Assembly: GCF_018143015.1 (NCBI RefSeq)
Contig: NC_054741.1
Span: 62,649,697 to 62,713,696 of the forward strand
Length of the DNA: 64,000 bases
Direction of reading: 5' to 3'
From: Lytechinus variegatus
Lineage: Eukaryota > Echinodermata > Echinoidea > Temnopleuroida > Toxopneustidae
Positions within the stretch are counted from its first letter, which is position 1. Each line of letters starts with the position of its first letter. A program made the translations under genes and the position numbers. A model generated the notes under the pieces. It did not search any database. It saw nothing but the letters and a program-made list of their open reading frames with translations, and had not been told where the DNA came from. This document shows positions 6,363 through 54,984 of this stretch, one piece after another.

Positions 6363-6519
6363 AGTCCAGGGAACGTCTCTACCGATTTTTATTTCAAACG
6401 GTACAAGGAACTCGAAAAAATGCAACCTTCTTATACACAGTGCCAAATCAGGGAAAGGGATAGAATATCACATGCATAGGCTTTTATAGTCTACAACAAA
6501 AGAAATTATTACGTAATCC

Positions 6520-13580: not shown

Positions 13581-13930
13581 AGGACACTGATTTTCATCTT
13601 GGTCCTGTAAGGACACTGATTTTCATCTTGGTCCTGTTAAGGACACTGATTTTCATCTTGGTCCTGTAAGGACACTGATTTTCATCTTGGTCCTGTTAAG
13701 GACACTGATTTTCATCTTGGTCCTGTAAGGACACTGATTTTCATCTTGGTCCTGTAAGGACACTGATTTTCATCTTGGTCCTGTAAGGACACTGATTTTC
13801 ATCTTGGTCCTGTAAGGACACTGATTTTCATCTTGGTCCTGTAAGGACACTGATTTTCATCTTGGTCCTGTAAGGACACTGATTTTCATCTTGGTCCTGT
13901 AAGGACACTGATTTTCATCTTGGTCCTGTA
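13581..13930. repeat. 29-bp minisatellite, about 12 units
   Basis: Head-to-tail units of AGGACACTGATTTTCATC plus TTGGTCCTGTA, near-identical; some carry one extra T. Each unit starts AGGAC and ends GTCCT, so every unit can form a short stem. No spacers and no cas genes: not a CRISPR. Confidence 0.95.
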
Positions 13931-14740
13931 AAAAGTACAAAGAAAAATTCTTGTAAAAAAATAAATACATAGTAGCATAAGTGTAGACCAAGACGATACC
14001 TTATCGTGGGTAAATAGTGAAGCGTTAATAAATTTTAAGAATATAGAAGCAATGAACCAATCATAACTACAATCAATAAAAAAGGAAGATATATGTAAAC
14101 ACGATAAAAAGCAAGTATATACAACTAAACGTTTATGTCTGCAAAATATTCAATTACATAAGTCAATGATAGAGGGGTTATGGTAAATTTCTTTGTGAGG
14201 GGGGGGGGGGGGGGGAGGTTGCATAAGCACTTAGATATCAGAATAGGAATAGGAACGATATCTAAAATGAATTTTTTTGTGATTCGATATGAAGCTTTAT
14301 ACGGACTCAGAATTTTGCATATTATTGGGAAGTTTGTACCAGACGTTCGTATCGGCATATGAACGAATGTTTAAATGATTCTAGATTAGGTTTATTGCTT
14401 TGGGCTGCAGCCGAAAGTATGAACTATTACTGCTCCTCAACCTTCCCATGCGGTGGCGAAATGAGCAAAACAACAACAACAAACGGCGTATGTTGGAATA
14501 GTTTGCATTTTTACGTGATACTCTAATCTTGTGACAGATTTCTACACAACATTCCTTCATTGTTCTTTTTCTCTTTCTATATCTCTTTTTTTCCTTGGGA
14601 AGAACCTCCCAAGTCTACATTATGTACATCATTGGTCAAAAGAGAGAGTAGTAATTTATTTCCTTTTTTTTAATACTATGGACACATAATTCATTTCCCA
14701 ATGAATTAATCACCGCTGTCGGAGTCAAATTTGAGATTGC
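13931..14740. other. No gene recognised
   Basis: AT-rich spacer with a G run at 14200-14216. Nothing coding was supported on either strand. Confidence 0.5.
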
Positions 14741-20219: not shown

Positions 20220-21650
20220 GTCTATTAAGAAATGTACTACCATTATTATAAATGCAAAGCTATGCTTAACCAAAGCCCTTTGCTGAAAACCTTGCAATTA
20301 CCTGAATTAGCCTCATGACTACATAAAACATACTGCTTCAGTAAACTTAATGTATAAACAAATATGCGTAAACAAAAACCTTATCATAAAGAATCCTGTA
20401 ATAAGCAAAGCTTTATGCGTTAACGGAAAACCTTGGATTAAAAACCTTATACTTGACCGAGCCTTATGCTAAAAACCTGAAACTTGACCAAATCCTATGC
20501 TAAAAACATTGTCTAAAAACCTTATACTTGACCATAACCTTATGCTAAAACTTAATGCTTAAAAACCTTATGCTTGACCAAAACTTTATATTCAAAACAT
20601 TATGCTTGACCCAAACCCTAGGCAAAAAACCCTATCCTTGACCAAGACATTGTGTAATAACATGCTTTACTCAAACTTTATGCCTAAAACCTTAAACTTA
20701 ACTTAACCAAAACCTAATGCTTAAACTATGTATGCTTAAAATCTTACACTTCACTAAAACCATAAGCTTAAAAATCTTACACTTTACAAGACCTTAAACC
20801 CTTTGGCGGTATTCTGAAAGCTCAATTAGTTCTTAGTTAATGCTTAAAAACCTTATGCTTAACCAAAACGTTATGTTAAAAAAGCATTATGCTTGACCCA
20901 AACCCTATGCAAAAACCCCTATCCTTGACCTAGACATTATGCAATAACATTATGCTTGGCCAAAACCTTCCGCTCAAAAACCTTATGCTTCACCCAAACT
21001 TTATGCTAAAAAGCCTTATGGCTAACCAAAACCTTATGCTTAAAAACCTTATACTTAGCCAAAACCTTATGCTTAAAAACCTTATACTTAGCCAAAACCT
21101 TATGCTTAAAAACCTTATACTTAGCCAAAACCTTATGCTTAAAAACCTTATGCTTAAAAACCTTATACTTAGCCAAAACCTTATGCTTAAAAACCTTATA
21201 CTTAGCCAAAACCTTATGCTTAAAAACCTTATACTTAGCCAAAACCTTGTGCTTAAAAACCTTATGCTTAGCCAAAACCTTATGCTTAATAAACTTATAC
21301 TTTGCCCAAACCTAATGCTTAAAAACCTTATGCTTCACTAGAACCTTATTTGTTAAAAAACATGTATCTAACCAAAACCTTATGCTTGTCTAATAACCTT
21401 ATGCTTGACCAAATCCTTAGGCTCAAAAACCTTATATTTAACCAAAACTTTATGCTTAAAAATCTTATGCCTGACTGAAACCTTATACTTAAAATCTTAT
21501 ACTTAACTTAACCAAAACCTAGTGCTTAAACACCGTATGCTTAAAATTCTACACTTCACTAAATCTTTAAGCTTAAAAATCTTATACTTTACAAGACCTT
21601 TTAAGCGTAAGCGCTTAAAACCCTTTGGCGGTATTCTGAAAGCTCATTAG
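20220..21650. repeat. CCTTATGCTTAAAAA minisatellite region, 33-bp core
   Basis: A degenerate array of AACCTTATGCTTAAA half units; the core (about 21020-21290) is near-perfect 33-bp units made of CCTTATGCTTAAAAA plus CCTTATACTTAGCC. Two ~150-base segments, ending 20690-20830 and 21480-21652, are direct duplicates carrying ACCCTTTGGCGGTATTCTGA. Open frames on both strands (LMLKNLILSQN one way, KVFKHKVLAKY the other) follow from the repeat. Confidence 0.9.
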
Positions 21651-22655
21651 CATTTTGGTATTCTAAAAGTGATACTTTCCTTATTTTGCAGGGGTGCGTT
21701 GCGTGCACTTGCATAAGAACGCGTTAAGACCGCGCGAAGACTTAATTGAGCAGTAACGAGAATTTGGTTTTCTGAAAAGTCTCGGAGCGAACAATTAGCA
21801 GACTTTCCCATGGGAAAATAATGGTGATAAAAGGTCCATTAAGTTTCATAATCTCATAAGCTGGCTTCTTTTCCGTTTGATTCTACGGCGAACCCTCTGC
21901 TTGCCATTGTCCATTTTTCTCTAATACGCGGATGAGTGCTCTTGCCATTCAAGATGCCAGCGTCACCTTGGCGCAGCACATACCCACTATGCATTATATA
22001 CTGAGTGCCCCTCCCCCCGGGTGCTTGAGGCTGCAGCAGAGAAAAAAAACTCTGAAAATGTATAAATGAAGTTTTCCATGATATCTATGACGATTTGGGT
22101 CATCTACCTAAAATGACAAATAGATGAACTAAGTCGTTATCAACTCTTATCTCTGGAGGTTTATCTTCAAAACCTCATTTATAACATCATAGCCGTTATA
22201 TCGTCTTATTGACTGTCTGATGGTGGTTGATACTTTGGTAAAAAGAATATCTTCTTTCCTATTCCTTGCTTGATAATCTGTGGAGTCTGTAGTGTGAGTC
22301 GCCGCCGACCTTGGACAAGTATCCTTGCTTCCTGTCGCTTCACTCTGTCTGTCACCTATATGCATGGCCCATTGTGACGTAAAAAATCAAGTTATATTTT
22401 ATTGTTCTTTCAAATCGAAAAAATGTATACGTTTTCTATTGATCAATTGTCACGAATGCAGGCTTATTTCTACATCTCCCAATTAATAATCTCTTGAACA
22501 TTCAGTTTGACATTCTTAAAAGTTTAATTAACTGATGAAGAGGTTAATATCGTACGGTGATATACTTGAGGATAAACAAAATATATATACTTAACACCTT
22601 TCATAAAATTAGTATGCTTAGCATCATATGACAGTGCACTAGTGCTCTTAAATGT

Positions 22656-22702: not shown

Positions 22703-22891
22703 TTAACAAAATTTATTTTGATTACTCGTAACTGAGAGAAATTTGGTTAGATGACCAGAATTACACTTTGTTTTTAACACATTTACATGATTGAAAAATG
22801 ATTGCGATTGTAACATAAACAGTTGACTACAACTTGTTATACATGGCCTGCCATGTACGTTTAACTGAACATATTGATTGTATTTGGTATG
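22703..22891 (-). CDS. Membrane caspase gene, proposed last exon (p10 end)
   Basis: Begins after a strong acceptor (TTTCCTTGCAG) in phase 0, matching the phase-0 donor of the exon at 22958-23067, and stays open for 62 codons to TAA. The segment VHGRPCITSCSQLFML sits where caspase small subunits carry a (K/R)QxPC-x-x-S-x-L-x-x-x-(L/F)-(Y/F) ending, so it plausibly closes the p10 fold. A further ~35 residues rich in Ser, Asn and Lys follow, longer than the usual caspase C-terminus. It lacks the typical LTRVNR-like helix directly after the previous exon, so a missed exon or a degenerate tail remains possible. Confidence 0.5.
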   Translation of the reverse strand, partial: HTKYNQYVQLNVHGRPCITSCSQLFMLQSQSFFNHVNVLKTKCNSGHLTKFLSVTSNQNKFC

Positions 22892-22957
22892 CTGCAAGGA
22901 AATAATCATATTCAGAAAGGAATTAAGGGAAAACCCTTAATAAAAGAGACATCGTAC

Positions 22958-23067
22958 CTTCGTCATGATGTCATCCAGATGATGAGCATGCGCACTAGCT
23001 ATGAGCTCCTCACAGAGGGCTTGAATGAACCAAGATCCGTTTTGTTTGTGACGCAGTGAAAAATAAC
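22958..23067 (-). CDS. Membrane caspase gene, p10 core exon
   Basis: 110 bases between an acceptor (CTATTGACAG) and donor (ACGAAG|GTACGA). With the split Gly codon from the previous exon it reads EGYFSLRHKQNGSWFIQALC and continues EELIASAHAHHLDDIMTK. Family knowledge: Y-(Y/F)-S-W-R-x(3)-GSWFIQ-x-LC is the most conserved part of the caspase small subunit. The Arg in SLRHK is the position that helps bind the substrate P1 Asp. The usual Trp before it is Leu. Phase 2-in and 0-out agree with both neighbours. Confidence 0.88.
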
Positions 23068-23177
23068 CTGTCAATAGGGATAATCAATGACGACGTTTAT
23101 ATGACAAAACAGTATTAATTGGTTCTCTATTTCCGCTATCTCTCATTTGCTGTAAAGCTTTATCTTTCCTTCCATAG

Positions 23178-23349
23178 TTGTGTCAAAATCCCTCATCCAT
23201 GTCAACCTTCCCCTCTTACAAAGTAACAATTCTTTATACACTGAAACATTTACTTACAACGCATACGTACCTCAGCTTACGCACCTTATTACCCCCCCCC
23301 CACACACACACACACACACTTTTTTTCTCCAAAAGCACACACACCGCAC
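23178..23349. repeat. CA-rich low-complexity stretch
   Basis: CACACA and C runs around 23290-23345, immediately left of the hAT-like element. Confidence 0.6.
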
Positions 23350-23663
23350 CATATGCGGAAATCACAGGGGGAGGGGGACGTGTCCTCCCTACTCAAAATA
23401 GTAGGGGGGGACACAATATCAAATGACCCCCTACTATTAAATTTTGTGGTCCTTTATGATGGTAAGAAATCCATCATTCAAAATCGAAATAAAACATGTA
23501 TTTTAGGACGAGATAACCTTATTTTTGTGATGATAACTTTTTTTTGCTTGTCAAATTTATTTTCGTCGAAATGACCTTAAATTTTGGGTGATTACTTTTT
23601 TTGGCTTGTACAATTTTTCAGCCCCTTGTCCCCCCTACCTTTTGGGAGAGATTTCCGCCCCTG
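23350..23663. mobile_element. hAT-like element in caspase intron, duplication CACCGCAC
   Basis: Ends CATATGCGGAAATC and, read inward from the right, CAGGGGCGGAAATC. Flanked by perfect CACCGCAC at 23342-23349 and 23664-23671. 314 bases, G-rich, non-coding. The interior matches, inverted, 36565-36725 (GGGGGACACAATATCAAATG and AATACATGT(A/T)TTA region). Confidence 0.85.
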
Positions 23664-24212
23664 CACCGCACCCATACTTTTCGCGCGTCCACACCAGGGC
23701 TTCGTCTTACTCTGATCCAATCAATCGTAACTCTGTGGAAATCCATCAGTGTCATAATTTTTTTCTACAGGAAATGTGCACAATGTCCTTTATAAACAAA
23801 GGAGAACACACCAAATTGTCAAGAAATCAATTAATTTATGGATATGCATTAATATCTAGATAAATTTTTTGAGCAAATATTCATTTTATATATGGTGACT
23901 TTGCTGGCTTTCCATAGTTGCGATCAATCGGATCAATCGAAGCTCTTTATAAGACGGGGCACTGATATCCATTGTATCGTACAGGCGTATCCCATCACAA
24001 GTTTTTGCTTTCAGGGAACTACGCTATCTTCCGTTAACAAATATCTTTTATATTTATACTCTTTTATGACAAATGATTCTGTATAATTCACATTAAAAAC
24101 TGTATTTCGTTAAAATGGAGGAAAATAAATGTTAATTTGAATAAGAATGGGGGGGATCCGGTGACCTATCACCTTCCCTCTCTGTCCCTCTGGCTCCCTA
24201 TCGTCAATTTAC

Positions 24213-24434
24213 CTTCTGATGTTGCATGGGCAATGTAGACATCCGCATTGTCTGGTACACTACCGTCAATGTCTAATTCTCCTGCATCCAGTGTAGGAGG
24301 TGGTGTCACACATTCTCCTTCTCTCGTTACCATAGTAACCCCTCCATCTACTCCGTCAGTCTTCACAGTGTCAGTATACATTCCAGGATCTTCTTCATAA
24401 TTTGGAGGAGATGGAGCACTCGGCGTTGCTTTGT
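24213..24434 (-). CDS. Membrane caspase gene, inter-subunit linker and p10 start
   Basis: 222 bases, acceptor ATCTCCTTTTCAG, donor GAAG|GTAAAT. The first codon completes QACRGD with the previous exon. It then encodes a ~55-residue acidic, Pro/Thr-rich linker (TPSAPSPPNYEEDPG, LDAGELDIDGS) and the first p10 strand PDNADVYIAHATSEG, the equivalent of (A/D)DFLxAYxTxPG in other caspases. Several Asp-Gly sites (VKTDG, DIDG) are candidate self-processing points. In active caspases cleavage here separates large and small subunits. The linker is longer than in typical effector caspases. Confidence 0.85.
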
Positions 24435-24932
24435 CTGAAAAGGAGATTTTGTCAAGAACGATTGTCGGCTTATTCAAATTGTTTAAATAGCTTATGAGCA
24501 ACTTTTTTCATATGTTTATGAAATCTGTCTTTTTCTCATCGGATTGTCTTCATTTCAACGATTTGTTAAATTATTTTTTCGAAAATAACTGTTTATCTGA
24601 CAAACAAAGAAGATTCGGATAGGAACATTTAGAAATAAACAATTATTTGGTTGGGAGGGAACTACATTCAATTATGTAAATAACAACGTATCGGTCTTTT
24701 AATAGAACGAATAGGCTTTTGTATTGTAGATAATTATTGATGCCTATTGATAAGACAATAGGAAAGACATTTCGAATATTGATCTAAACAATATTGCAAT
24801 CTTGATCAGAAAATCAGGATAATAAAAGTAATATATTCGTTGCCGTCGTTTCGATTTCCTTGTTCTCTCGAAAACTCTTAATTTTGTTACTCTATAGCTG
24901 GTGTAAAAGGGGGGTGGTTGTAAGTGGATTAC

Positions 24933-25149
24933 CTCCACGACAGGCCTGGAAGAACATGATCTTTGGTTTTCCGATCAAAGCTGGACAGTTGTTCCCAGAG
25001 AACATGTTCTTGATTTCCTCGACGGTGACGACTTTCTGATCGATACCAAGAATCCCTTCTGAAACCCCGTGGCTCATGAAGACCAATACAACAGAGGTAT
25101 GGGAGGGAGAGATCTTCTGTTTTAGGCTCTTCAGTTTTCGTCGTATCCC
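24933..25149 (-). CDS. Membrane caspase gene, catalytic exon (His and Cys)
   Basis: 217 bases, acceptor CTCATGCGCAAAG, donor GGAG|GTAATC. It reads GIRRKLKSLKQKISPSHTSV, VLVFMSHG (catalytic His), a loop, then KIMFFQACRG (catalytic Cys). In the partial product these are His424 and Cys467, 43 residues apart, as expected for the C14 peptidase fold (about 42 in caspase-3). The pentapeptide QACRG is the caspase signature. It joins the exon before in phase 0 and after in phase 1. Both catalytic residues being present argues for an active protease rather than a caspase-like decoy. Confidence 0.92.
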
Positions 25150-25423
25150 CTTTGCGCATGAGAAACGGATAAGGCAAATGATATGAATTATTAGACGGAC
25201 CTCACTGTCATTTAAAATGATATGGCAAGATTAGTAGGGTTGTGTTCTTAAATTTGTTAAGTTCTTCGCTGCCAATCGTTCATCCCCTCTTGTTCCCCTT
25301 TCTTTCTCTACCATATACCCACCTCTCCTTCTCTTCATCTCTCTCTCCATCTTTCATTCTTTGTGTCTGATTCTTCAAGAGGCAGATTCTACAGTAACGC
25401 GAGCGCCACAATTTTAATGTATC

Positions 25424-25572
25424 CCGTGTTTACTCTTAATCGGGTTTTGCATCGACTCGCGGTGCAGAACCGCGAGCTGTAACAGCGTGTAAACGCAGAG
25501 CAAGATAAACCAAAAGCCGATTCTGCATCGGCTTTTGGTTTTGAACCAAAGGCCGATCAAGTGTAAACACGG
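25424..25572. mobile_element. Foldback MITE in caspase intron
   Basis: Outer inverted ends CCCGTGTTTACTCTTAATCG and (inward) CCGTGTTTACACTTGATCGG, with inner hairpins around GCAGAACCGCG and AAAGCCGATTCTGCATCGGC. Non-coding. Confidence 0.65.
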
Positions 25573-25614
25573 TAAGAATCGATATACATTTTTATGTCAG
25601 ATCAACTAAGCGGA

Positions 25615-25860
25615 ATGGATCCTACAACGCAGCAAATGCATTGAAAATGCAAGTCCAATCACATTGAAGTATTTATCGAGAGTTGATGAATCGGAACGGC
25701 AGTTTCATCTGACGTTCTAGAGCAAATTTGTCGCTTGTCCTGAGTCACAGACGAAACTTCCGTTTCGATTCACCTACTCTCGTCAAAGCCTTAGTTGTCA
25801 TAAAAGGTACTATAGACAATAGATTATCTACGTTTCGGAAACCGTCTGCGTAATAATTAT
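25615..25860. repeat. Dispersed repeat, copy 2 of 3
   Basis: Shares ATGGATCCTACAACGCAG, TCACATTGAA, the ACAATAGATT segment and GCGTAATAATT end with 61385-61680, and its start with 12195-12310. Confidence 0.6.
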
Positions 25861-25955
25861 TGTTGTGGAAACTTCTTATAGATTATACCTACGGTGACTT
25901 AGGGTTTTATACATCTTTTTGGAGTACATCTAGTGTCAAATTTGAAAGACGTTAC

Positions 25956-26129
25956 CTCAGCAGTGAGATTTTGAGCTTCATTAGACGTGTAGCCAATCTC
26001 GGTGAAGACATGCTTGACATTGACCATATCAACATCAGATCCCTTTCTCTCAATGGTTCTATCGGTGTGAAAGGTGTAGTTGTTGAGGATGAATACGATA
26101 CCTTTATCCCGCTGGTCCATAGGGTAGCA
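25956..26129 (-). CDS. Membrane caspase gene, p20 N-terminal exon
   Basis: 174 bases (58 codons, phase 0 in and out), acceptor ATGTTTCTTTCAG, donor GCTGAG|GTAACG. Reads CYPMDQRDKGIVFILNNYTF, then DRTIERKGSDVDMVNVKHVF and a GYTSNEAQNLTAE end. Family knowledge: Y-x-M-x(4)-G-x-(C/A)-(L/V)-I-x-NN-x-x-F opens the caspase large subunit, and R-x-G-(T/S)-D-x-D supplies the S1-pocket Arg. Both are present. It joins directly to the catalytic exon. Confidence 0.9.
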
Positions 26130-26358
26130 CTGAAAGAAACATTATGCCATCTGTGTTTAATAGCTCTACGATTGAACATGAACGAAGTAAAGCATTAGCC
26201 AAAATGCCCCCCAAATCAACTTGTTTTCGTTTTATCGACAAGAATGTGCAGTTTATTTATTTCATGTTTTAGACTTGGGATAAAATGGAATAATCGTCAA
26301 AGAATGAGAAAATATCTACATTTATACGTCGTATAATCTTGGGACCCCTTCCCCAGAA

Positions 26359-26822
26359 ACAAATCAAGGGTCGAGGATTCGAGTCCCGCCCGGCGCTAAT
26401 GTCCTTTGGAGAGACAATTATCCACGTTTGCCACTCTCCACCCAGATGTTAAATGGATAACGGGTAGGTTGTGAACGTCAATATGATTAGATTGGCACGT
26501 GTGCACTGATAAAAGGTTATCTGGCCTGGGGCCCGTTGCAGAAAGAGTTGCGTTAAAACGCAAGTCAAAAATCAATCGCAAGTCCCAAATGCGCGCTGTT
26601 GATTGGTTGAAAATCAAGTTGCGCATGATTTTTAGAGTTGCGTTTGATTGCAACTCTTTCTGCAACGGGCCCCTGGATACTTCCCAGGGAGTTGAGATGG
26701 TGCATTTTTGTGTGGAACAGTGATGGATACTGTCAACCGGGTAGTAATAAAGCGCTTAGAAACCAAGCGCTATATAAAATTAATGTAACTATTGTTATTA
26801 TTGTTATTATTATTATTAAATC
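26359..26822 (+). repeat. tRNA-derived SINE with ATT tail, split by a MITE
   Basis: GAGGATTCGAGTCCCGCCC fits a Pol III B box at the start; the 3' end has AAAGCGCTTAGAAACCAAGC, GCTATATAAAATTAATG and an ATTGTTATTATT tail. A MITE (26530-26671) interrupts the body. A related 3' end lies at 52455-52585. Located in a caspase-gene intron. Confidence 0.75.
26530..26671. mobile_element. GGCCCGTTGCAG MITE, copy 2, duplication CCTGG
   Basis: Perfect ends GGCCCGTTGCAGAAAGAGTT in both orientations, flanked by CCTGG at 26525-26529 and 26672-26676. 142 bases, non-coding, inserted in a SINE. Inverted relative to the copy at 12410. Confidence 0.88.
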
Positions 26823-26844
26823 CTTAAAATATCTCTTTAAATAC

Positions 26845-26930
26845 CTCTTCTCGGTTAAGTCCTATTTCTGTAATGGTGGCACTCCTGATCTTTTCGGCTT
26901 GATAAAACCCATCGACATCCGGTGGAACGT
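26845..26930 (-). CDS. Membrane caspase gene, juxtamembrane exon 2
   Basis: 86 bases, acceptor TTTTCATGCAG, donor GAAGAG|GTATTT. Only one frame is open, and it is the one demanded by phase: VPPDVDGFYQAEKIRSATIT then EIGLNREE. It enters in phase 1 (completing Asp) and leaves in phase 0. This is the cytoplasmic linker between membrane helix and protease; no CARD or DED adaptor domain is recognisable. The DVDG site could serve for release by Asp-specific cleavage (inference). Confidence 0.78.
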
Positions 26931-27215
26931 CTGCATGAAAAAAAAACACATATAAATGGAATTGAATTTGAAAATAAAGAAGACGGAGAGAAGTGTCGCT
27001 GCCGCCAATCGATTTGGTTGATAAAGTTTAGTCCCATTGAACCCTAATGTAATAATTATCATGGAGCCACTAATTAGCAGCCCCGTTCCATATTCCATGT
27101 ACTTCTGTAATGTAGCAAGTCCTTATTATAGAATAACAGCACTATAGGCAGAAAGATTGCTTGGCATTGAGTTAAAGGTGCTAATGAATGAATATGAGGA
27201 TAAATTGCTACATAC

Positions 27216-27258
27216 CATCATCGTCTTCTCCAACTGAATCTTCATCGAGTATTGTGTA
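27216..27258 (-). CDS. Membrane caspase gene, juxtamembrane exon 1
   Basis: A 43-base exon, acceptor ACTTTCCTTGCAG, donor GATG|GTATGT, reading YTILDEDSVGEDDD. Strongly acidic and directly after the basic stop-transfer sequence. Phase 0 in, 1 out, matching both neighbours. Short, but both splice sites are near-consensus. Confidence 0.72.
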
Positions 27259-27671
27259 CTGCAAGGAAAGTTTAAAATGTATTGATTTAACTATCAAAGC
27301 TTATAACAGTTCATATAGACTATGAAATGTGTTTTCTCTGCTCCTTGAAAAACAACCCTGTACTCTGGAAGAGCCTTCTTTGCCTTACAAATCAAATGAA
27401 CCAATAGGCCAAAATGAGGATAAGAAAATCTTTAAAAAAAAGTAGAAAGGGTGGAACAAAGATAACTGATTGCCAATTAATGAGAACTTTGGGGGAGGGA
27501 ATAGAAGCAAAAAGTCTCACAAAAATCACAATGCATTGTTTGGGTTTGCGAAGTAGAGGCCTACGCGTTGATCCCACCATGCCCATTATAATCACAATAT
27601 TAAAAAAACAGGAATTCTACCTCAATTATATTTATTTCCCAATATTAAGATGGAAAATTTAGTTTACATAC

Positions 27672-27775
27672 CTGCTTTCTGCTGTGTCTGTGTCTCAATT
27701 TATAAATGATATATATCAGTGGCAGGATTAGTAAAGGAAGACCTAGAAAGCCAATAAATCCCATCGTCTTGAGTT
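27672..27775 (-). CDS. Membrane caspase gene, transmembrane exon
   Basis: 104 bases, acceptor TTTGTTTAACAG, donor AAGCAG|GTATGT. Reads LKTMGFIGFLGLPLLILPLI then YIIYKLRHRHSRKQ: one ~20-residue hydrophobic helix followed by a basic cluster, the classic stop-transfer of a type I membrane protein. That puts the upstream Thr-rich and sushi exons outside the cell and the caspase inside. It enters in phase 1 from the mucin-like exon and leaves in phase 0. Confidence 0.85.
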
Positions 27776-28221
27776 CTGTTAAACAAAGCATGAATATTTC
27801 AAATTCATTTACTTCGCATCTCTCTCTCTAAAAAAGCTACAATACAATACAGCGAGATGAAATCAATAAAATAATTTCATGATAAAGGAAAGTAAATCAA
27901 TTACAATAAGAAATCAACAAAATAAAAAATGCAAAAGGTAATGATTTTATATATACATATATATATATACATGATAACTATCATCAATTCTATAACCATA
28001 AATAAGTTTAGTACAAATCTAGCTCTGAAACCTTCTTGAGAATCTACAAATTAACATTCGGTAATCTTTTAAGTGATCCACAGCTTGAACAAAAATTGTT
28101 ACCTAGGTATAATTGTTGTCCTTAGGGCCTTTGAGACAACTGTCACGATATAAGGTATATAAACTTAGCTTGAAAAGTTTGAATATTTTTTCTAAAATTA
28201 ACATGATTGAAGAGAACTTAC

Positions 28222-28599
28222 TGTGAGACGTTCCAGGAAGAGCAGTCGTAGGTCCAGTCTTCCTGGAGGAATGACTTTGTGTTGTAGAACTGTCTGTCGT
28301 GATAGGATCCGCTTTGGGAGTAGTAGCAGTAGTAGGGTTCGTCTTGGGGGTATGGTTTCCTTTCGTAGTATGATTCTTTGTGGAAGGAGTCACAGAAGAA
28401 TTAGTTGCAATTGTTGTATCAGTTTCAACTGCTGGGGTTGTTTCCGCTATCGATGGACTCGGCTTCGTGATGGGACTTGCCATCGTGGGATCGTTGTGCC
28501 ATGTCGTTGTTTCGGAAGGTGTACTGCTTGTATGAACATGTTTCGTCGAATAGTTTGTTCCGGCCGTTGTGGCAGTATGGGTGGTTGGTTGTTCCTTTG
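28222..28599 (-). CDS. Membrane caspase gene, Thr/Ser/Pro-rich stalk
   Basis: 378 bases, acceptor TTTCTTTTCAACAG, donor CACA|GTAAGT (consensus). About 125 residues dominated by Thr, Ser and Pro (KEQPTTHTATTAG, KPSPSIAETTPAVETDTT, NPTTATTPKADPITT) with NYS, NSS and NHT N-glycosylation sequons. Family knowledge: such mucin-like segments are O-glycosylated stalks holding a ligand-binding module away from the membrane. One exon encodes the whole stalk. Phase 1 in and out, as is usual for extracellular modules. Confidence 0.83.
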
Positions 28600-28914
28600 C
28601 TGTTGAAAAGAAATAGAAATCAATTAAAAATCATTGAAAGGAAATCACATTTGTTAATCTTTCAACTTTATATTATCAGATATTATAATCAGACCTTTTC
28701 CATAGATGGCACAATAATCTTAATCAAACACAATACTGTATAATTGACTGATTATTAATGAAACGTGTCGATATCATCTATCAGAAAAACATCGCCAAAA
28801 GGACAACTTGGATAGATCCCTTTAAAAGAATTTAGGATCTTCGTAAAAACAGAATTACGTATGAATAATAAAATAATCAAAACAAAAATCAAGGGGGGGG
28901 GGGTTATATCACAC

Positions 28915-29112
28915 CTTGACAATGTGGGAATTCATTAGACAGAGTGCCATTCGGCCGGCATTTGATGGTAGAACTTCCGACCATTGTGAAACTAGAGTCA
29001 CTGCAGGCAAATACACACACGGTATCACATTTGATGCCTTGGTTTGGCGGGCAAGTTCCTTGGATCAACAGGAGCGGGGACGAGTAAGCCGGCAGAAAGC
29101 AATTCGTTGATT
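28915..29112 (-). CDS. Membrane caspase gene, sushi/CCP module
   Basis: 198 bases, acceptor CTTCACTGCAG, donor TCAAG|GTGTGA, phase 1 in and out as typical for CCP exons. The module spans about residues 90-135 of the partial product: CPPNQGIKCDTVCVFACS, then GSSTIKCRPNGTLSNEFPHC. Spacing of Cys, the NG-(T)-x-S pattern and PxC ending fit a short complement-control (sushi) domain; the usual Trp after NGT is Leu and there are extra cysteines. These modules bind proteins or glycans outside the cell. A Leu-rich stretch precedes it. Confidence 0.75.
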
Positions 29113-29661
29113 CTGCAGTGAAGAGAAGGTATCGTTTAAGGTAATATATGCTACAAACTCACTGAACAGCGTCATCACAAGTCCTAAATGGTTCATTTAG
29201 TTATACAAGATAATGAGAATTAATTTGTCAAATTGAATGATAATATTCATTAAATTTGAAAAAATTATGGTAAAATTGAAATCGCTGTTTTCAAAAGTCG
29301 CAAATCTTAGTCTTATAAAGACACTCTCTATCCATTATTTTCAATAGAAATAACTTCCAATAGAAATAAATAACAAACAAAGAAAGTTGGACTACTGACG
29401 TTGCAAATATGAGCAAAAGCTGGTTTTCATTCTGACTAAAATGGATTCAAGTTGAAAAATACTTTAAATTGACCTTGCTAAGTCAAATGGGTTTAACATA
29501 AAATTTGGGGGGATTTAGATTCATCAAACAATAAATGTAAAGATGATTTGAAAGATATTTTCCATCGTTTTAATTTCGCCATGCCTAATTCGCACGTTAT
29601 TTCTGCTTTAAAAACAACGTAACGTAAATGGGTGCATGGTGATAACGGTAAGTAGGCCTAC

Positions 29662-29869
29662 CTTTCATGTGACCAGTAAATACAAGCCTGTTGACCATGG
29701 AATTGGTAGCATCCTGAACTGCAGCATCTCGGGTGTAAGTGGACTTTGCCATTACCCTAAACCCGGTCTGCTGGTCAGTCACTAGCGCATCATAGGCGAA
29801 GGTCTCTCTGAACCATTTGTAGAGCCTCTTTTGGGATATGGTATAAAAGGTCCGACATGATACGAGATC
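29662..29869 (-). CDS. Membrane caspase gene, most upstream exon found
   Basis: 208 bases, acceptor CTTCAAATCTCCAG, donor AAAG|GTAGGC; phase 0 in, 1 out, joining the sushi exon. Reads DLVSCRTFYTISQKRLYKWF, ETFAYDALVTDQQTGFRVMA, then RDAAVQDATNSMVNRLVFTG. I do not recognise this fold. It is soluble-looking, with one Cys and many aromatics, and presumably extracellular because it precedes the sushi module. No signal peptide or start codon is in view, so at least one exon lies further upstream, perhaps beyond the repeat-filled 30-52 kb. Confidence 0.65.
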
Positions 29870-31376: not shown

Positions 31377-31918
31377 AAGCTTAAAAGTGCCACCGAGATG
31401 TTGAGATAATTATCTTGGGAAGTCGGCATCATGATAGCAAAAGATCAGATGACGAGATCCTGGATCTCATCATGTCCACATATTTCAGAAGAGATGATCA
31501 GATGACAAGATCCTGGATCTCTTCATGTCGACATCCTTTAGAAGAGATGATCAGATGATCGTCGATCCATGATCATATCATCTGATCATCTCTTCCACTG
31601 GATGTAGACATGACGAGATCCGGGATCTTGTCATCTGATCATCTCTTCTAAAAGATATCGACATGACGAGATCCATGATCTTGTCATCTGATCATCTCTT
31701 CTAAAAGATGTCGACATGACGAGATCCGGGATCTTGTCATCTCATCATCTCTTCTAAAAGATGTGGACATGATGAGATCCGGGATCTTGTCATCTGATCA
31801 TCTCTTCTGAAAGATGTGGACATGATGAGATCCAGGATCTCGTCAACTGATCTTTTGCTATCACAATGTCGACTTCCCAAGATAATTATCTCAACATCTC
31901 GGTGGCACTTTTAAGCTT
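31377..31918. mobile_element. Foldback element made of 53-bp palindromic modules
   Basis: Near-perfect ~70-base outer inverted repeats starting AAGCTTAAAAGTGCCACCGA and containing GATAATTATCTTGGGAAGTC. Inside are about nine modules of 53 bases (TCTGATCATCTCTTCT starts at 31581, 31634, 31687, 31740, 31793), each with an internal GAGATCC-x-GGATCTCGTCATG palindrome; modules left of about 31570 run in the opposite direction. The whole 542 bases can fold into one long hairpin. No coding frame. Confidence 0.85.
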
Positions 31919-32639
31919 TCTTAGATTTTTACCGTGCTGGTTTCGTCTTCAAATGATAGATATGGAAACGCTCTCAATTCTGCCCATCTTCTATCTGCCT
32001 CTGTGAATCATATTTGAATAGAGAAAAATAAACACGCAATCAGTTTCTGGGAAATTTGTGATATTCCAAGTGAAAACTTGGCATTCTAAGCATTTATGTA
32101 ACAAGGAATATGATGGGAATCTTACCAAGCAATAATTGATGCGAGCGCGAAGCGCGAGCCAATAATTAACTTAAAAAAACTGAAAAGGGGCACATTTCAT
32201 TTTTAAAAGGGGCGTTTCCAATGGAGAAGTAGTAGAAGTAGTAGTGGTAAATTTTAATTACACACAGATGATGAAGTCATCTTAATCAAAATGAGCGTTT
32301 GGGCACTATATACTTTATGTATTTCACTGATACAAAATAAAGCCAAAGTCCGCTTTTACACCATGCTGCTACCCAACTGTTACCAAGGTAAACTGCACTG
32401 GGATTTTATGCATGAACTGAACAAACATTTGAAAATGACTTTCCTAAATAATTCTTAGCAAACAGAATTTAATCCCAATTATAATTACGTAATCGTTTAT
32501 CACAATTAGCTATTCAAATCAAAATTTAAAAAAATAAAGAAAACCAAGATTTTAAGATGAAATTGATGAATGTGTTCTACATTCAAGATTCAGTTTTTTT
32601 TTTCTCGCGCAACGTCATGGAGGACGGCCGCGGTTACAG

Positions 32640-32750
32640 CCCGATAGACCGCGGGTCCGATAGACCGCGGGTCCGTTAGACCGCGGGTCCGATAGACCGC
32701 GGGTCCGATAGACCGCGGGCCCGATAGACCGCGGGTCCGATAGTCCGCGG
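32640..32750 (-). repeat. 16-bp minisatellite, left copy
   Basis: About seven units of CGGACCCGCGGTCTAT (minus-strand reading). Inverted relative to 44545-44718 and forming part of the left arm of an interrupted foldback. Confidence 0.9.
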
Positions 32751-38136: not shown

Positions 38137-38344
38137 GTTGTAGAAGGACGTGTCTCGAGCGAGCTCCAGAGTTTTTGTAAGTTTTGTTGAATTTACACTG
38201 TTTTATTTACAGTTTTTTAAACTAGTGTACTACTAGTACACATTTATAACCATACCAAACCAAGTCCACCTATTATTTCTTGTTAATAACTTGTATTTTC
38301 AAGGATTTTTGTGTTGACCTTGTGTCAGGAACTTTTTGGCCACT

Positions 38345-39856
38345 ATGGCCAGTAAAGCCGGACAGGCCTCCCGGGACAAGCCGGGAACCAGTTCGGCTCA
38401 GGCTGCCGTTCCTGTTTCTGCTGCCGAGCCTTTTACGTCCGTGAGCAGAAACAATGGTATCTCTTTTGTGGCTGCTGCACATGTTCCTATTCATGATTAC
38501 ATAAGGGCATTCGCAGACACAATTCCAGCCCATTGTATAGTGTCTGCTTCCCGCATCAGTAACCAAAGAATTGCCATGTACCTGAATTCTAAAGAAGATG
38601 TGCTGAGCGCGGTGAACAACGGCTTGACCTTTAAAGGCGCTTTTATTGAGATCTCACCCTTAGCTTTGCCGACAACCCGTATTACACTGTCTAATGTATA
38701 CACTGAAATTCCCAATTCTGTTCTTGTCAAACAAATTTCATCTTTCTGTAAAGTAGTCTCACAGATCCGTCCTATTCCCATTGGTTTCAAGGACAAACAT
38801 CTAGCTCACATCATGTCCTTCCGTCGTCAAGTTCAGGTGCTACTTAGTCCGAATGTCACTCCACCCGATTTCATTAATTTCACTCATGCTGGTATCAATT
38901 ATCGCGTTTTTATTTCCACTGAGGCGGCTCGTTGCTTTGAGTGCGGCGAGGCTGGCCATCTCAGTAAGAACTGCAAAAAATCAGTCCGTCAAGATGAGTC
39001 TGAAAACCCACAAGCTAAAGGAAAATCGGACCCACGTCATCCCCCTAAAGTATCTAAACCTAAACCACAACGGTCTGTACCCGAAACCACTGACAAGAGG
39101 GCGTCCCCAGCACGCACAGAAAATTCTATTGGCCCCAGTCCTACGCCAGCCTCTCCGCACTCTAAAGCTGCCGTGACTGCTGAAGGAGCCTCTGCTAGTT
39201 TTCAGGGCGCGAATAATCTGCACAGCAATGATAATAGTCAAACTAGCAGCGACTCCGTGGGCATTAGCCGGGACAAAATGCCTCTTCCCGAGGCCCCCAC
39301 CTCTCCTTTGACCCAAACCCCCTGCGACACCATTTGGGGAACACCGCCCGCCCCTTCCAGACTCTTTGCAGATGTTGTCGCAAAAAGGAAACAACCTCTC
39401 GTACCTCCTGTAGAAGACTCCCCCAAACTTATTTCAATTGTCTCTCCTACCCCACCCCGGAAATTAATGAAAAAAGTCTCCTCTCCTATGACCTCAGAAC
39501 CTCCCTCCCCAACTCCCGTCCTACTCTCTACATCACCAACCCCACCCTCTCCCGCTTCCACGGTAGACACTACCGACACTGATGACGTAACGGTATGGGA
39601 TGATGCACAGACTGACGATGAATCCTTTGACTGGGCCTCCTCATTCCCATCCAGTCAAGGACCCCTCTCTTCCAAGGAACTTTGCAAATTTCTGAAAATT
39701 GTTAAAGCACGGAAAAAACCCCTAGAAGTAGCAAAAAAATTCACTTCCAACATACCAGGACTTGTTAGACAACTGAGACCTTTGAGAAACAGTCCTCTGT
39801 TTACGAAAAGTACACAGCAGAGGATTTACAAATTGATCAAAAAACTAGATCTCTAA
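38345..39856 (+). CDS. LINE ORF1 protein with CCHC zinc knuckle
   Basis: 503 codons from ATG at 38345 (a TTG nine bases earlier is in frame) to TAA at 39854-39856. Residues ~30-185 form a folded region without a clear match in my reading. At about 197-210 is CFECGEAGHLSKNC, an exact C-x2-C-x4-H-x4-C retroviral-type zinc knuckle. The rest is a long Pro/Ser/Thr-rich acidic segment and a basic C-terminal helix with KSTQQRIYKLIKKLDL. Family knowledge: ORF1 proteins bind the element RNA and form the RNP used in retrotransposition; knuckle-bearing ORF1s are known in Tx1-type LINEs. Intact, no stops. ORF2 follows after 23 bases in another frame. Confidence 0.85.
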   Translation: MASKAGQASRDKPGTSSAQAAVPVSAAEPFTSVSRNNGISFVAAAHVPIHDYIRAFADTIPAHCIVSASRISNQRIAMYLNSKEDVLSAVNNGLTFKGAFIEISPLALPTTRITLSNVYTEIPNSVLVKQISSFCKVVSQIRPIPIGFKDKHLAHIMSFRRQVQVLLSPNVTPPDFINFTHAGINYRVFISTEAARCFECGEAGHLSKNCKKSVRQDESENPQAKGKSDPRHPPKVSKPKPQRSVPETTDKRASPARTENSIGPSPTPASPHSKAAVTAEGASASFQGANNLHSNDNSQTSSDSVGISRDKMPLPEAPTSPLTQTPCDTIWGTPPAPSRLFADVVAKRKQPLVPPVEDSPKLISIVSPTPPRKLMKKVSSPMTSEPPSPTPVLLSTSPTPPSPASTVDTTDTDDVTVWDDAQTDDESFDWASSFPSSQGPLSSKELCKFLKIVKARKKPLEVAKKFTSNIPGLVRQLRPLRNSPLFTKSTQQRIYKLIKKLDL

Positions 39857-39879
39857 TATGACCCTCTTTCTTTTTTAGT

Positions 39880-42800
39880 ATGAACGTAGACATGCATGCC
39901 TTTCTTTCCTTTTTTATGACTCTGTCGTTGCTCACCCTTAACACTGGAGGTTGCTCCAATGCCATGAAGAATGCCTCAGTTTTTACTTATGTTGATAACA
40001 TTGCTTTTGATTCTGATATTGTGTTTTTACAAGAAATAAATGACCTCTCCCAGCATTCTCATTGTTGGGATTTATGGTCATCCTATAAACCTTTTTGTGC
40101 CCCCGGACATAATCGAGGATCTGGAGTTGCTACCCTTGTAAAGAATAACCATTGTAGCATCACAGATTCCTTAGTTATACTTAATAGTCATATCTTATAT
40201 GTTAAAATTGAGTTTGATAGTGGCATGTATCATTTATATAATGTTTTAATGCCACAGGATGATAACCTTGCTATTAAGGCCATTCGTCTTCTTGCGCATC
40301 ATGTTAATCAGTGCAGTGACGGTGTTTTTTTAATTGGGGGAGATTTTAACTGTACCCTATCTCCAACATTGGATAGATTGTGCATGCCTAATGAGCATAG
40401 ACCTAAGATATCATCTGCCCTCAAGAAAGTGATTGAAAGTAATAAATTATGTGATGCGTGGCGAAGACTTCACCCACATGAAAAGAAATTCTCTTGGCAT
40501 AGAAACAATCCTCACAGTGTATATGGTGTTTCTAAAGCCAGACTTGATCGTTTTTATGTGTCTTTCCCTCTAATACCTTCAATACACGCTTGTCGTATTC
40601 TGCCTTGCACTCTCTCTGATCATTGTGCAATTTCCCTGAAAATTAAAATCCCCCCACAGAAGCCAAGAGGAAGTGCTTTTTGGCAACTTAATAATTCTCT
40701 TCTCGATGATAACGATTACAGAAATATCATTCATCAATTTTGGACGGACTGGCAAAATAAAAAAGCCAACTTTCCTAACATTCTATCATGGTGGGACTTT
40801 GGTAAATACCACATTAAATCGCTCACTCAAATGTACGGCTCCAAGTTAGCCAATGAGAAGAGAGAAACGTTATTAAATATTACCAAAACCATCGACAAAT
40901 TACAATCTTCGCCTGACTTCACGCCTGATATTCAGCAGGCCCTTGCTGAACAAAGAAATGAATTAAACATTCTTCTTAAGAATCAAGCCAAGGGTGCTCT
41001 TGTAAGGTCACGTTTTCAATATGCAAATGAGATAGACACTAGCTCAGCTTATTTTTTCGGTCTTGAAAAATCGAACTCTACTTTTAAATCACTCTCTCGT
41101 ACCCGTCTCCCTTCGGGTAACATTACAGAGGATCAGAGTGATATTAAAATTCACGTTCGGAATTTCTATAAGAGTTTGTACAGTCGTGTGCCAACTGATG
41201 ATAATGCGGTTGATAATATTTTATCTGACTTACTGAAACTTGATACTGAAGATTCAAAAAGTCTTAATGCTCCTTTGTCACTTAATGAATTTGATAATGC
41301 TGTTAAACAGCTCGGGAAAAATAAAACGCCTGGTCTAGATGGACTTTCTTCTGAATTCTATCAGACTTTCTGGCCCTTGATAAAAAATGATCTTTTTTCT
41401 GTATTACAATATGCCATAAGTACTGGAACCCTTCCACATACTTTTCGTAGGACAGTGATTACACTGATTCCTAAAAAGGGAGACCTGGCAGACATTGCCA
41501 ACTGGCGACCAGTCTCTCTTCTGAATAATGACTACAAAATTTTTGCAAAGGTACTTGCTAATAGACTAAAACATTATATCTCTAATATTGTTTCAGAAGA
41601 CCAAACGTATTGTGTTCCAGATCGAACAATCTATGATAATTTAAATTTGATCCGAGACATTGTACACTATTCTAATTGTAATGATACCCCTCTTGCAGTA
41701 GTAAATTTGGATCAAAGGAAAGCCTTTGATAATGTAGATCATAATTATCTCTTTAACACTATGAGAGCTATGGGTATTGGAGAATTTTTCATTTCTTGTA
41801 TTCAACTTTTGTATAATGATGCCGAGGGCTTAGTCAAAGTGTGTGGATCCCTCACTGCGCCTTTTCCTTTTCAAAAAGGCATACGCCAAGGTTGCCCTTT
41901 GTCTGGCCTTCTGTATTCGATAGCCATAGAACCTTTGCTGCACAAGTTAAAAGTTAATCTTGCTTCATGTTCTTTTTCTTTACCTAACACGGATATGAAT
42001 GTCTCAGTCTCTGCATATGCAGATGATATATCAATTTTTGTCACTGAAGACAAAGGCTTTGATATTATTCTTGATACATATAACACTTTTAGTAAGGCCT
42101 CGGCCGCCTGCCTTAATCATGTAAAATCTCAAGGACTGTGGGCTGGATCATGGTCGAAACGTAGAGACAGGCCCCTTGATTTCAAATGGAATTGTGATGG
42201 TCTCCTTTTTCTTGGAGTTCATCTGGGTAATAACAATAATTTTGTATACAACAACTGGATAAAGTGTAAAGAAAAATTAAATAAGACTCTATCTCGATGG
42301 AGTTCTCTTTCTTCTTGTCTATCCTTCAAAGGCAGAATCATTATTGCTAATCAACTAGCTGCATCTAAACTGTTTCATTGCCTTGCAGTTTTATCTCCCC
42401 CTCAGCAAATACTGGATGAACTCCAAGAAATGCTTATTAATTTTGTTTGGTCCGGAAAACGACATCTTTTAAGAAAGCAAATTCTGTTTCAACAACCTAA
42501 CAAAGGTGGACTTGGTTTGGTATGTCTCCAAGCACGAACACTCACGTTTCGTTTTGCCTTTTTACAGCGCTATCTCAATCTTTGTTCTCATCCCGCGTAT
42601 ACCTTTTGTTCTTATAATCTTCGGAGATATAAGAAATTAAATTTTGATTTTTCTTTGTTTCTGACTGAATTAGACCCAAAGTTTTATACCAGTCTTCCTT
42701 GTTTCTATTCGGAAATTTTGCGTGCTTGGGGTATCTCTGGAGCCAGCATCGAGACATCGTCCTTCACTGTCAACCATGTGTTCAATATTCCTTTGAATTA

Positions 42801-43788
42801 TTATAAATTTCTTCATTACACACTGGATGGCGACAAGATCTTCCCTGCTAGATTATTTGCATGTGGAATCAAACTCGTCAAACATCTTGTAAACCCGAAC
42901 AACGGTACCTGGCTCCGAGCAGACGAGGTCGCCATCACATCCACCCTGCAGCGTCCATCTTTACGGCTCTTGGAATTTGACCTCTCTCGACTTCACAAAG
43001 TGATTTCCAGTTTGTTTCCCAGATTCTTTTTAAACAGCGGACTTAGACTGTCAATAGTTTCAACTCATCTTCACAATCTGGCTGAACCTATCAACTCTCC
43101 GTTCTCGATTATAACTAAGGACAACAAGAACATTCTTGCCACACCCACTAAATCGATATATCGAATCCTCAACCGTTCTATTAACTTTCTTCCTAGAACT
43201 CAAGTTACTCATTGGCACGAGATTGGGATACTTTCCCCATCTACACTAATCAACTGGACTGAAATCTACTACTATCCTTCGTCTAAGAAAGATGGGGACA
43301 CTCAGTACAAACTATTACATAATGTCCTTCCGTCGCTTGCCGTTCTCCATCACCTTAATTCCGACATCTCCTCTTCATGTGGATGGTGTGGCAAGAAAGG
43401 AACTATATTACACCTCTTTATCGAGTGCACTTCTATTCAACCGGCCTTGGATCTACTTCATCACCTCCTTTCATGTCTTTTGCCCGAAGTGAACATTGAC
43501 TTTGACCTCTACTGGACCTTGGTTCCACATGCAAGAGGTCGTAGCAGGGAAGCCGTGCGCCTATCCAACTTTCTTATTGTTAGTCTTAAAAGCACATTAT
43601 ATTGGCTTTACCGAACCTCTCGTTTTTTTGATCCGCTTCCGTTTTGGAAATTTAGAATTAAAAACAGAGTCATTATTGATTATGAATTCCACAAATTACA
43701 AAGCAATTTGGCTTTATTTCTTAAAACATGGTCACCCAATAATGTACTCTTTCTTTTGGATAACGATAGTCTCACATGGTTGATTTAA
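39880..43788 (+). CDS. LINE ORF2: endonuclease and reverse transcriptase
   Basis: 1302 codons, uninterrupted. Residues ~15-255: AP-type endonuclease with LTLNTGG, FLQEIN (catalytic Glu), GGDFNCTL (Asp/Asn) and LSDHCAISL (SDH). Residues ~480-780: reverse transcriptase with KNKTPGLDGLSSEFY, IPKKGDLADIANWRPVSLLN, VNLDQRKAFDNVDH, GIRQGCPLSGLLYS and SAYADDISIF (YADD). A thumb with FLGVHLG follows. Near residue 1167, CGWCGKKGTILHLFIEC is the C-terminal Cys/His motif of the L1 group. The PKKGDL-x-NWRPVSLLN-x-DYK pattern is Tx1/L1-like. Length is normal for the group. It would nick target DNA and copy the RNA in place. All catalytic motifs are intact, so the copy may be active. Confidence 0.93.
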   Translation: MNVDMHAFLSFFMTLSLLTLNTGGCSNAMKNASVFTYVDNIAFDSDIVFLQEINDLSQHSHCWDLWSSYKPFCAPGHNRGSGVATLVKNNHCSITDSLVILNSHILYVKIEFDSGMYHLYNVLMPQDDNLAIKAIRLLAHHVNQCSDGVFLIGGDFNCTLSPTLDRLCMPNEHRPKISSALKKVIESNKLCDAWRRLHPHEKKFSWHRNNPHSVYGVSKARLDRFYVSFPLIPSIHACRILPCTLSDHCAISLKIKIPPQKPRGSAFWQLNNSLLDDNDYRNIIHQFWTDWQNKKANFPNILSWWDFGKYHIKSLTQMYGSKLANEKRETLLNITKTIDKLQSSPDFTPDIQQALAEQRNELNILLKNQAKGALVRSRFQYANEIDTSSAYFFGLEKSNSTFKSLSRTRLPSGNITEDQSDIKIHVRNFYKSLYSRVPTDDNAVDNILSDLLKLDTEDSKSLNAPLSLNEFDNAVKQLGKNKTPGLDGLSSEFYQTFWPLIKNDLFSVLQYAISTGTLPHTFRRTVITLIPKKGDLADIANWRPVSLLNNDYKIFAKVLANRLKHYISNIVSEDQTYCVPDRTIYDNLNLIRDIVHYSNCNDTPLAVVNLDQRKAFDNVDHNYLFNTMRAMGIGEFFISCIQLLYNDAEGLVKVCGSLTAPFPFQKGIRQGCPLSGLLYSIAIEPLLHKLKVNLASCSFSLPNTDMNVSVSAYADDISIFVTEDKGFDIILDTYNTFSKASAACLNHVKSQGLWAGSWSKRRDRPLDFKWNCDGLLFLGVHLGNNNNFVYNNWIKCKEKLNKTLSRWSSLSSCLSFKGRIIIANQLAASKLFHCLAVLSPPQQILDELQEMLINFVWSGKRHLLRKQILFQQPNKGGLGLVCLQARTLTFRFAFLQRYLNLCSHPAYTFCSYNLRRYKKLNFDFSLFLTELDPKFYTSLPCFYSEILRAWGISGASIETSSFTVNHVFNIPLNYYKFLHYTLDGDKIFPARLFACGIKLVKHLVNPNNGTWLRADEVAITSTLQRPSLRLLEFDLSRLHKVISSLFPRFFLNSGLRLSIVSTHLHNLAEPINSPFSIITKDNKNILATPTKSIYRILNRSINFLPRTQVTHWHEIGILSPSTLINWTEIYYYPSSKKDGDTQYKLLHNVLPSLAVLHHLNSDISSSCGWCGKKGTILHLFIECTSIQPALDLLHHLLSCLLPEVNIDFDLYWTLVPHARGRSREAVRLSNFLIVSLKSTLYWLYRTSRFFDPLPFWKFRIKNRVIIDYEFHKLQSNLALFLKTWSPNNVLFLLDNDSLTWLI

Positions 43789-52645: not shown

Positions 52646-52777
52646 CTTCATCGAAATATACTCCGGGGGGTGGAGTGGGGTCTTTGCCTTCCTTCAATGT
52701 GTTTCTAGTTGTAGAGATTCCTGAAGTTATCTTGTAATCAATGACGTCATTTCCATAAAGATTGGAATGTACAAGAT
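52646..52777 (-). CDS. Unrecognised gene, exon 3 in view
   Basis: 132 bases, acceptor TTCTTTTTACGAG, donor GAAG|GTATGA, phase 1 in and out. Reads LVHSNLYGNDVIDYKITSGI, then STTRNTLKEGKDPTPPPGVY and FDE. It joins 52924-53025 with a split Asp. I do not recognise the family. Confidence 0.6.
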
Positions 52778-54862: not shown

Positions 54863-54984
54863 CTATGTGTCGAGCGATAAACACTGAAAACAAGAGAAAT
54901 GACTTAATAGCTGCTGTAACTGCCATCACAATAGATATGAGATCGACATGGAAATCAATATCTTCTTTACTGTCATCAGTTCTT
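54863..54984 (-). CDS. Unrecognised gene, exon with hydrophobic segment
   Basis: 122 bases, acceptor TTTTTTCGTTATATAG, donor ATAG|GTATGC; phase 2 in, 1 out, joining 52924-53025. Reads RTDDSKEDIDFHVDLISIVM, AVTAAIKSFLLFSVFIARHI: an acidic start and then about 25 mostly hydrophobic residues, likely a membrane helix. The frame is open upstream too. An internal TTTTCAG at 54884-54890 could instead give a 21-base exon in the same frame. The family is not recognised. Confidence 0.5.

Follow-up and report, generated by a model that had tools for sequence, protein, structure and literature searches.

The 64,000-nucleotide stretch of Lytechinus variegatus DNA analyzed here (contig NC_054741.1, positions 62,649,697 to 62,713,696; hereafter the window, C2:62649697-62713696 in our genome census) carries a minus-strand gene whose predicted product joins a sushi/CCP domain, a transmembrane (TM) segment and a caspase in one chain. 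With three upstream exons found by tblastn with an annotated protein and fixed by a splice search, the gene has 14 exons running from 54926 to 22206 over a span of 32.7 kb (Table 1). The join of these exons is 2154 nt long and its translation is identical, letter for letter, to the 717-aa "uncharacterized protein LOC121408581" of L. variegatus (P0001; protein rows in our searches are numbered with a P).

A receptor-like caspase gene

An original prediction, made by reading the window without database searches, had proposed a gene of eleven minus-strand exons. Ten of the eleven stand, with their positions, GT-AG ends, matching phases and open join, and one gene does span the region from the N-terminal module to the caspase, as borne out by the identity of the 14-exon join with P0001 and by the same domain order in paralogs and in other urchin species. 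Its extent had been drawn too small, however, as three 5′ exons were absent from that model. Exon 4, its first exon, was ruled out as the start of the protein, as the annotated protein also covers the three exons upstream of it, which include a leader. The exon it had placed last (within 22936-22703) has an open frame, yet we replaced it by 22355-22206, the true last exon, which completes the caspase and agrees with the annotated protein; it encodes VTDRVKRQE...QTPQIIKQGIGKKIFFLPKY, the usual p10 end.

The protein consists, in order, of a leader (residues 1-26), a small alpha/beta module (about 84-158), a sushi/CCP domain (159-225), a Thr/Ser/Pro stalk, one TM segment (about 355-375), an acidic linker and a caspase domain (437-717). 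The hydropathy of the leader is 1.67 over residues 1-19, five N-X-S/T sites lie N-terminal to the TM segment, and this segment is followed by the basic flank LRHRHSRK and then by the acidic linker. By hydropathy and charge, the leader, single TM segment and basic cytosolic flank are consistent with a type I membrane receptor. The sushi/CCP assignment is based on the profile match (21.7 bits on the N-terminal 155-aa piece, above the Pfam cut-off of 20.7; 20.6 bits, slightly below it, on the 629-aa join of the original prediction), on a predicted structure that agrees with the CCP fold, and on the cysteines. The sushi domain, Thr/Ser/Pro stalk, single TM segment and basic stop-transfer that had been proposed earlier are all present.

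Peptidase_C14 matched the 717-aa protein with E 1.3e-49 (169.5 bits; Pfam cut-off 21.4) and the 629-aa join with E 9.5e-50, and the best match among PDB sequences was caspase-3 (E 1.5e-30). The p20 (SHG, QACRG) and p10 (GSWFIQ) motifs of the original prediction are present, and alignment with caspase-3 places His512 in SHG, Cys555 and Gln553 in QACRG, the S1 arginines at Arg455 and Arg637, and GSWFIQ; the catalytic dyad and the Asp-binding residues are intact, and the caspase as a whole appears to be. CARD, DED, death, PYD and TNFR gave no Pfam match at E<=1, which places the protein outside the death-fold initiator and TNFR-type groups. Directly before p10, the motif [VL][ED]xD is found in all 22 urchin caspase rows, and D-G[FLYSC][YL] precedes p20 in 21 of the 22, the exception being P0008. 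VEID- and LETD-type motifs are caspase substrates, and the motif before p10 is consistent with interdomain processing. The juxtamembrane D↓G motif could release the protease from the membrane.

Table 1. Exons and candidate functional positions of the receptor-like caspase gene (positions in the window)
Feature	Position	Strand	Basis
Exon 1: start codon and hydrophobic, signal-peptide-like leader	54863..54926	-	reproduces P0001 residues 1-22
Exon 2: N-terminal extension, residues 22-66	52646..52777	-	splice search, P0001 identity
Exon 3: residues 66-88, start of the module's N-terminal helix region	31933..32000	-	splice search, P0001 identity
Exon 4: module (4-stranded sheet and C-terminal helix), phase 0 to 1	29662..29869	-	homologous to P0019 N-terminus
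Exon 5: sushi/CCP domain, phase 1-1	28915..29112	-	Pfam, predicted structure
Exon 6: stalk, residues 224-349, phase 1-1	28222..28599	-	T/S/P = 68/126
Exon 7: TM helix and basic stop-transfer, phase 1-0	27672..27775	-	hydropathy 2.38, residues 355-373
Predicted TM helix, about residues 355-375	27699..27761	-	hydropathy
Exon 8: acidic juxtamembrane linker 1, phase 0-1	27216..27258	-	P0001 identity
Exon 9: linker 2 with PPDVD↓G, phase 1-0	26845..26930	-	P0001 identity
D405-G406, candidate membrane-release cleavage site	26908..26913	-	motif in 21/22 urchin caspase rows
Exon 10: p20 first part, S1-pocket Arg455	25956..26129	-	caspase-3 alignment
Exon 11: p20 second part, SHG and QACRG	24933..25149	-	motifs
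Catalytic His512 codon (SHG)	25069..25071	-	motif
Catalytic Cys555 codon (QACRG)	24940..24942	-	motif
Exon 12: p20-p10 interdomain linker and p10 start	24213..24434	-	splice join
LDID614↓G615, candidate maturation site	24262..24267	-	[VL][ED]xD in 22/22 urchin rows
Exon 13: p10 with GSWFIQ	22958..23067	-	splice join
Exon 14: p10 C-terminus and stop	22206..22355	-	splice join, P0001 identity

Recurrence of the layout in the genome and in other sea urchins

A caspase census of the L. variegatus genome (869.6 Mb) yielded 30 matching exons, spread over 14 places. On C6, two loci (16755684-16738540 and 15792088-15774057) carry exons 4-14 in the same order, open and with AG/GT ends; seven of these 11 exons equal those of the window gene in length and the other four differ by multiples of three. 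Exon-3-like matches and weaker exon-2-like matches lie upstream. As the upstream 10-kb stretches were inspected at 9 of the 13 non-window caspase places, the three sushi-type genes are a minimum for this genome. The C2 and C6 genes are identical at 381 of 664 aligned positions. The ratio of non-synonymous to synonymous rates (dN/dS) between them is 0.22 overall, 0.31 in the TM segment and linkers, 0.13 in p20, 0.16 in p10 and 0.38 in the interdomain region, with a value of 0.11 for module and sushi in which the module dS, at 3.85, is saturated. This pattern indicates that the exons tying the membrane to the protease have been kept as protein. Between the two C6 copies, which lie ~0.96 Mb apart, identity in coding sequence is 98.4%, as would result from a recent duplication, gene conversion or assembly duplication.

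Searching with the part of the protein from the TM segment to the end, we found 27 proteins among 3371 candidates. In ten rows (P0001-P0003, P0005, P0006, P0008-P0012), from L. variegatus, L. pictus, S. purpuratus, Diadema antillarum and D. setosum, a caspase occurs together with a single hydrophobic segment and a cluster of cysteines of the sushi type. Four urchin species besides L. variegatus therefore have annotated proteins with the CCP-TM-Peptidase_C14 layout of the original prediction, and this, together with the recurrence of exons 4-14 at two loci, takes the layout beyond chance. The Diadema forms carry 3-4 sushi stretches compared with one in the window gene. Nine other urchin rows (P0004, P0007, P0013-P0019) depart from this layout, with several hydrophobic segments in P0014 and P0016 and none over threshold in P0004, P0007, P0013, P0015, P0017, P0018 and P0019. 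Most names among the remaining eight rows (P0020-P0027) point to caspases of hemichordates, fishes, arthropods and tunicates. A profile search with the whole alignment returned seven proteins, all found before; it scored only the 7994 candidates that shared most words and is thus uninformative on non-echinoid echinoderm classes. In P0004 (D. antillarum), two caspase domains surround a module/sushi-like part, which could be a fused gene model.

A caspase tree was built from 27 of 30 proteins (P0025 was dropped as it has no QAC motif, and P0004 and P0026 were left out). The 13 sushi-clade rows group together (support 97/98), the P0014/P0016 group comes next (80/69) and the P0019-type lies outside; the root is a midpoint root, and long branches meet among the outgroups. 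Compared with S. purpuratus, the module is identical at 34 of 75 positions and the protease at 104 of 130, and compared with Diadema at 14 of 74 and 84 of 128, respectively. Faster change in the module than in the protease fits a recognition role but also weak constraint.

The N-terminal module and the front ends of urchin caspases

The module had been called unrecognized in the original prediction, and sequence searches gave at best weak matches to known domains; the module is not unique to the receptor, as it also heads soluble urchin caspases. Pfam searches with nine module pieces gave six weak matches, each in one of the nine members (best E 0.047), and the best match among PDB sequences had E 0.72. 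A dsRBD-like fold is a tentative lead for the module. Structure-based listings on longer proteins were filled by the caspase and CCP, and the matches in a viral-protein library were short and weak.

The module did align with the N-terminus of P0019, a soluble L. variegatus caspase annotated as "caspase-6-like" and encoded on C1 near 93.763-93.772 Mb (hhalign probability 97.3, E 2.4e-11). Among 30 column-shuffled controls the best probability was 1.1 and the best E 0.05, and seven other segments of the same proteins reached at best E 0.23. A search with the P0019 module found four proteins, all urchin caspases. P0019 also shares the PDVDG and [LV][ED]xD motifs with the receptor, and its intron phases (0, 1, 1, 0, 0, 1, 0) match those of the receptor gene at 7/7 resolved junctions; one further junction, between residues 374 and 445, was not resolved. 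The two genes differ in the stretch that separates the module exon from the PDVDG exon. P0019, which has no hydrophobic segment over threshold, has a single Pro-rich 1-1 exon there, whereas the receptor gene has the sushi (1-1), stalk (1-1), TM (1-0) and linker 1 (0-1) exons, which jointly form a 1-1 block. Further copies of the module were seen at C1:93.760 Mb (L025, 3870-4090, minus strand), in an exon with a stop right after the module, and at C1:49.25 Mb (L021, 3295-3561), where it precedes another caspase.

A third front end is found in P0014 and P0016, the nearest group to the sushi clade in the caspase tree. These proteins are multi-pass, with about four hydrophobic stretches, and no sushi domain or module was found in them; in the multi-pass caspase gene on C14, the PDVDG exon is likewise entered in phase 1. 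The L. variegatus ortholog of P0016, with several hydrophobic N-terminal segments, lies at C14:15.18-15.22 Mb (L030, L029, L023 and L024). The P0016-type forms a second, multi-pass class of membrane caspase, the membrane part of which has no Pfam family.

From these phases we infer that front ends were probably exchanged at the phase-1 boundary before the PDVDG exon. The most likely course would be that a module-bearing soluble caspase gene gained a signal peptide together with a phase 1-1 cassette of sushi, stalk and TM, the direction being a proposal.

The window also contains repeats and mobile elements. Two sets of LINE-type open reading frames (ORFs) lie in intron 2 on the plus strand, opposite to the gene (38318-43785 and 47270-51072), with Pfam matches to zinc knuckle, endonuclease, reverse transcriptase and zf-RVT. 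On the minus strand at 5439-6467, two adjacent ORFs encode a Tc1-type DDE endonuclease (E 4.2e-15) and a paired/helix-turn-helix region, in the manner of a mariner/Tc1-like element. Two arrays in intron 2 (32641-32750 and 44546-44717) seemingly use one 16-bp unit (CCGATAGACCGCGGGT or its complement), and 53-bp repeat arrays in intron 3 (31443-31852) stand in opposite orientation and form a large inverted repeat. Outside the gene, tandem arrays with units of about 33 bp and 29 bp occupy 20439-21544 and 13581-13931; the former yields long repetitive open frames.

Proposed mechanism and alternatives

In TNF-family death receptors, an extracellular ligand leads to clustering-induced activation of a caspase; caspase-8 is a separate DED protein that is recruited via the death domain. 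The protein of the window gene differs in that the caspase is in the same chain, and no death domain, DED or CARD was found in it by Pfam at E<=1. A closer parallel is the amphioxus TNFR-caspase (Brafl1_82667), described in a 2008 paper as predicted to be transmembrane, with an extracellular recognition domain and an intracellular caspase with QACXG (PMC2575513). According to the same paper, this architecture has cDNA support, LRR-caspase hybrids occur too, and the fusion is read as a shortcut from receptor to cell death (PMC2575513). The novelty implied in the original prediction is reduced by this precedent. The amphioxus and urchin proteins appear to share an extracellular recognition domain, a TM segment and a caspase in one chain; the ectodomain is TNFR or LRR in amphioxus, whereas it is module, CCP and mucin stalk in urchins. 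The comparison suggests that deuterostomes may have fused a receptor to a caspase on more than one occasion. Lineage-specific shuffling is seen in bivalve caspases, which have FN3, DSRM and PB1 as partner domains, and in the text available to us sushi is not mentioned and the sole "transmembrane" passage concerns death receptors (PMC10967218). A 2007 survey of apoptosis genes treats sea urchin caspases without the word transmembrane in the part available (PMC2246300). In the open literature, with most subscription journals outside the search, we found no paper naming these loci, none combining "caspase domain", sushi, transmembrane and echinoderm, and none with any of five set phrases for urchin or echinoderm caspases.

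Proximity-induced activation of caspases is established. We propose that the ectodomain would bind a microbial, complement-like or cell-surface ligand, and that clustering would draw the cytosolic zymogens together. These would then process themselves at LDID614↓G and perhaps also at the juxtamembrane PPDVD405↓G, and the active protease would either remain at the membrane or be released to cut cytosolic targets. Recognition and protease would thus reside in one protein, without a death-domain adaptor.

That the receptor-like caspase architecture is real and conserved in sea urchins we regard as nearly certain. The contrary reading, in which a CCP-mucin membrane protein and a soluble caspase have neighboring genes of their own that became one in gene models only, draws on the fact that the fusion is known here from genome sequence and gene models, and that the sushi-clade relatives P0007, P0013 and P0017 are modeled without a TM segment. 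We consider it highly improbable: the coding frame of both linker exons continues that of their neighbors, and these exons are conserved in Diadema as well as from the C2 to the C6 genes, the dN/dS of the TM segment and linkers opposes a split between TM and caspase, named as the refuting outcome in the original prediction, and the layout occurs at three loci of the L. variegatus genome and in four other species. The same P0007 of S. purpuratus runs from its stalk straight into IPPDVDG, so that the TM and linker-1 part alone is missing, and in the window gene exons 7 and 8 total 147 nt and could be skipped in frame. Such skipping would give a secreted or ER-retained (endoplasmic reticulum) decoy, the membrane form being one of two products. 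P0007 is a partial model that starts inside the stalk and may be a prediction error, however, and no isoform of the window gene with this skip was seen, which leaves this switch quite improbable.

Several other points weigh against the receptor reading. On the full 717-aa protein the Sushi score is 20.3 bits, slightly below the Pfam cut-off. The annotated models stem from NCBI-type pipelines, possibly with shared assumptions, and in our search for the C6 paralogs the script set the phase. Where the stalk ends in these paralogs is uncertain, and the stalk of L. pictus P0006 is longer. Between C2 and C6 the module dS is saturated and the stalk dS not computable, and between the two C6 copies the dN/dS of p20 is 1.04, based on few changes. 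The juxtamembrane D↓G motif is also present in urchin caspases without a TM segment and therefore need not have evolved for membrane release.

The function is less firmly placed than the architecture. Non-apoptotic roles of caspases are well known, and a membrane-tethered caspase could have a non-lethal role in local proteolysis (at a coelomocyte, egg or epithelial surface) or in cytokine-like processing. Nothing in the sequence specifies death, and with PPDVD↓G uncut the action of a tethered protease would stay local. The catalytic domain is, however, nearest to the executioner caspase-3 among PDB sequences, although this does not settle the biology, and we hold a non-lethal role to be rather unlikely. 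A single-pass type I membrane caspase with one-component signaling is a reasoned guess from sequence, with even chances of being correct. With somewhat less confidence than that, we propose that urchins have a modular family of membrane-tethered caspases in which the phase-1 intron before the PDVDG exon may serve as a docking point for front ends: module and Pro-rich linker (soluble), module with CCP, mucin and TM (one-pass), or multi-pass. The one-pass forms would be ligand-activated and free themselves at PDVD↓G.

Caspases are usually described as soluble zymogens that adaptors recruit. With a caspase built into the receptor, no adaptor would be needed, and such direct "sense and cut" signaling would be testable in a laboratory animal. 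In the annotation these genes have no label other than "uncharacterized protein". The shared module and intron phases offer a concrete path from a cytosolic protease to a membrane receptor.

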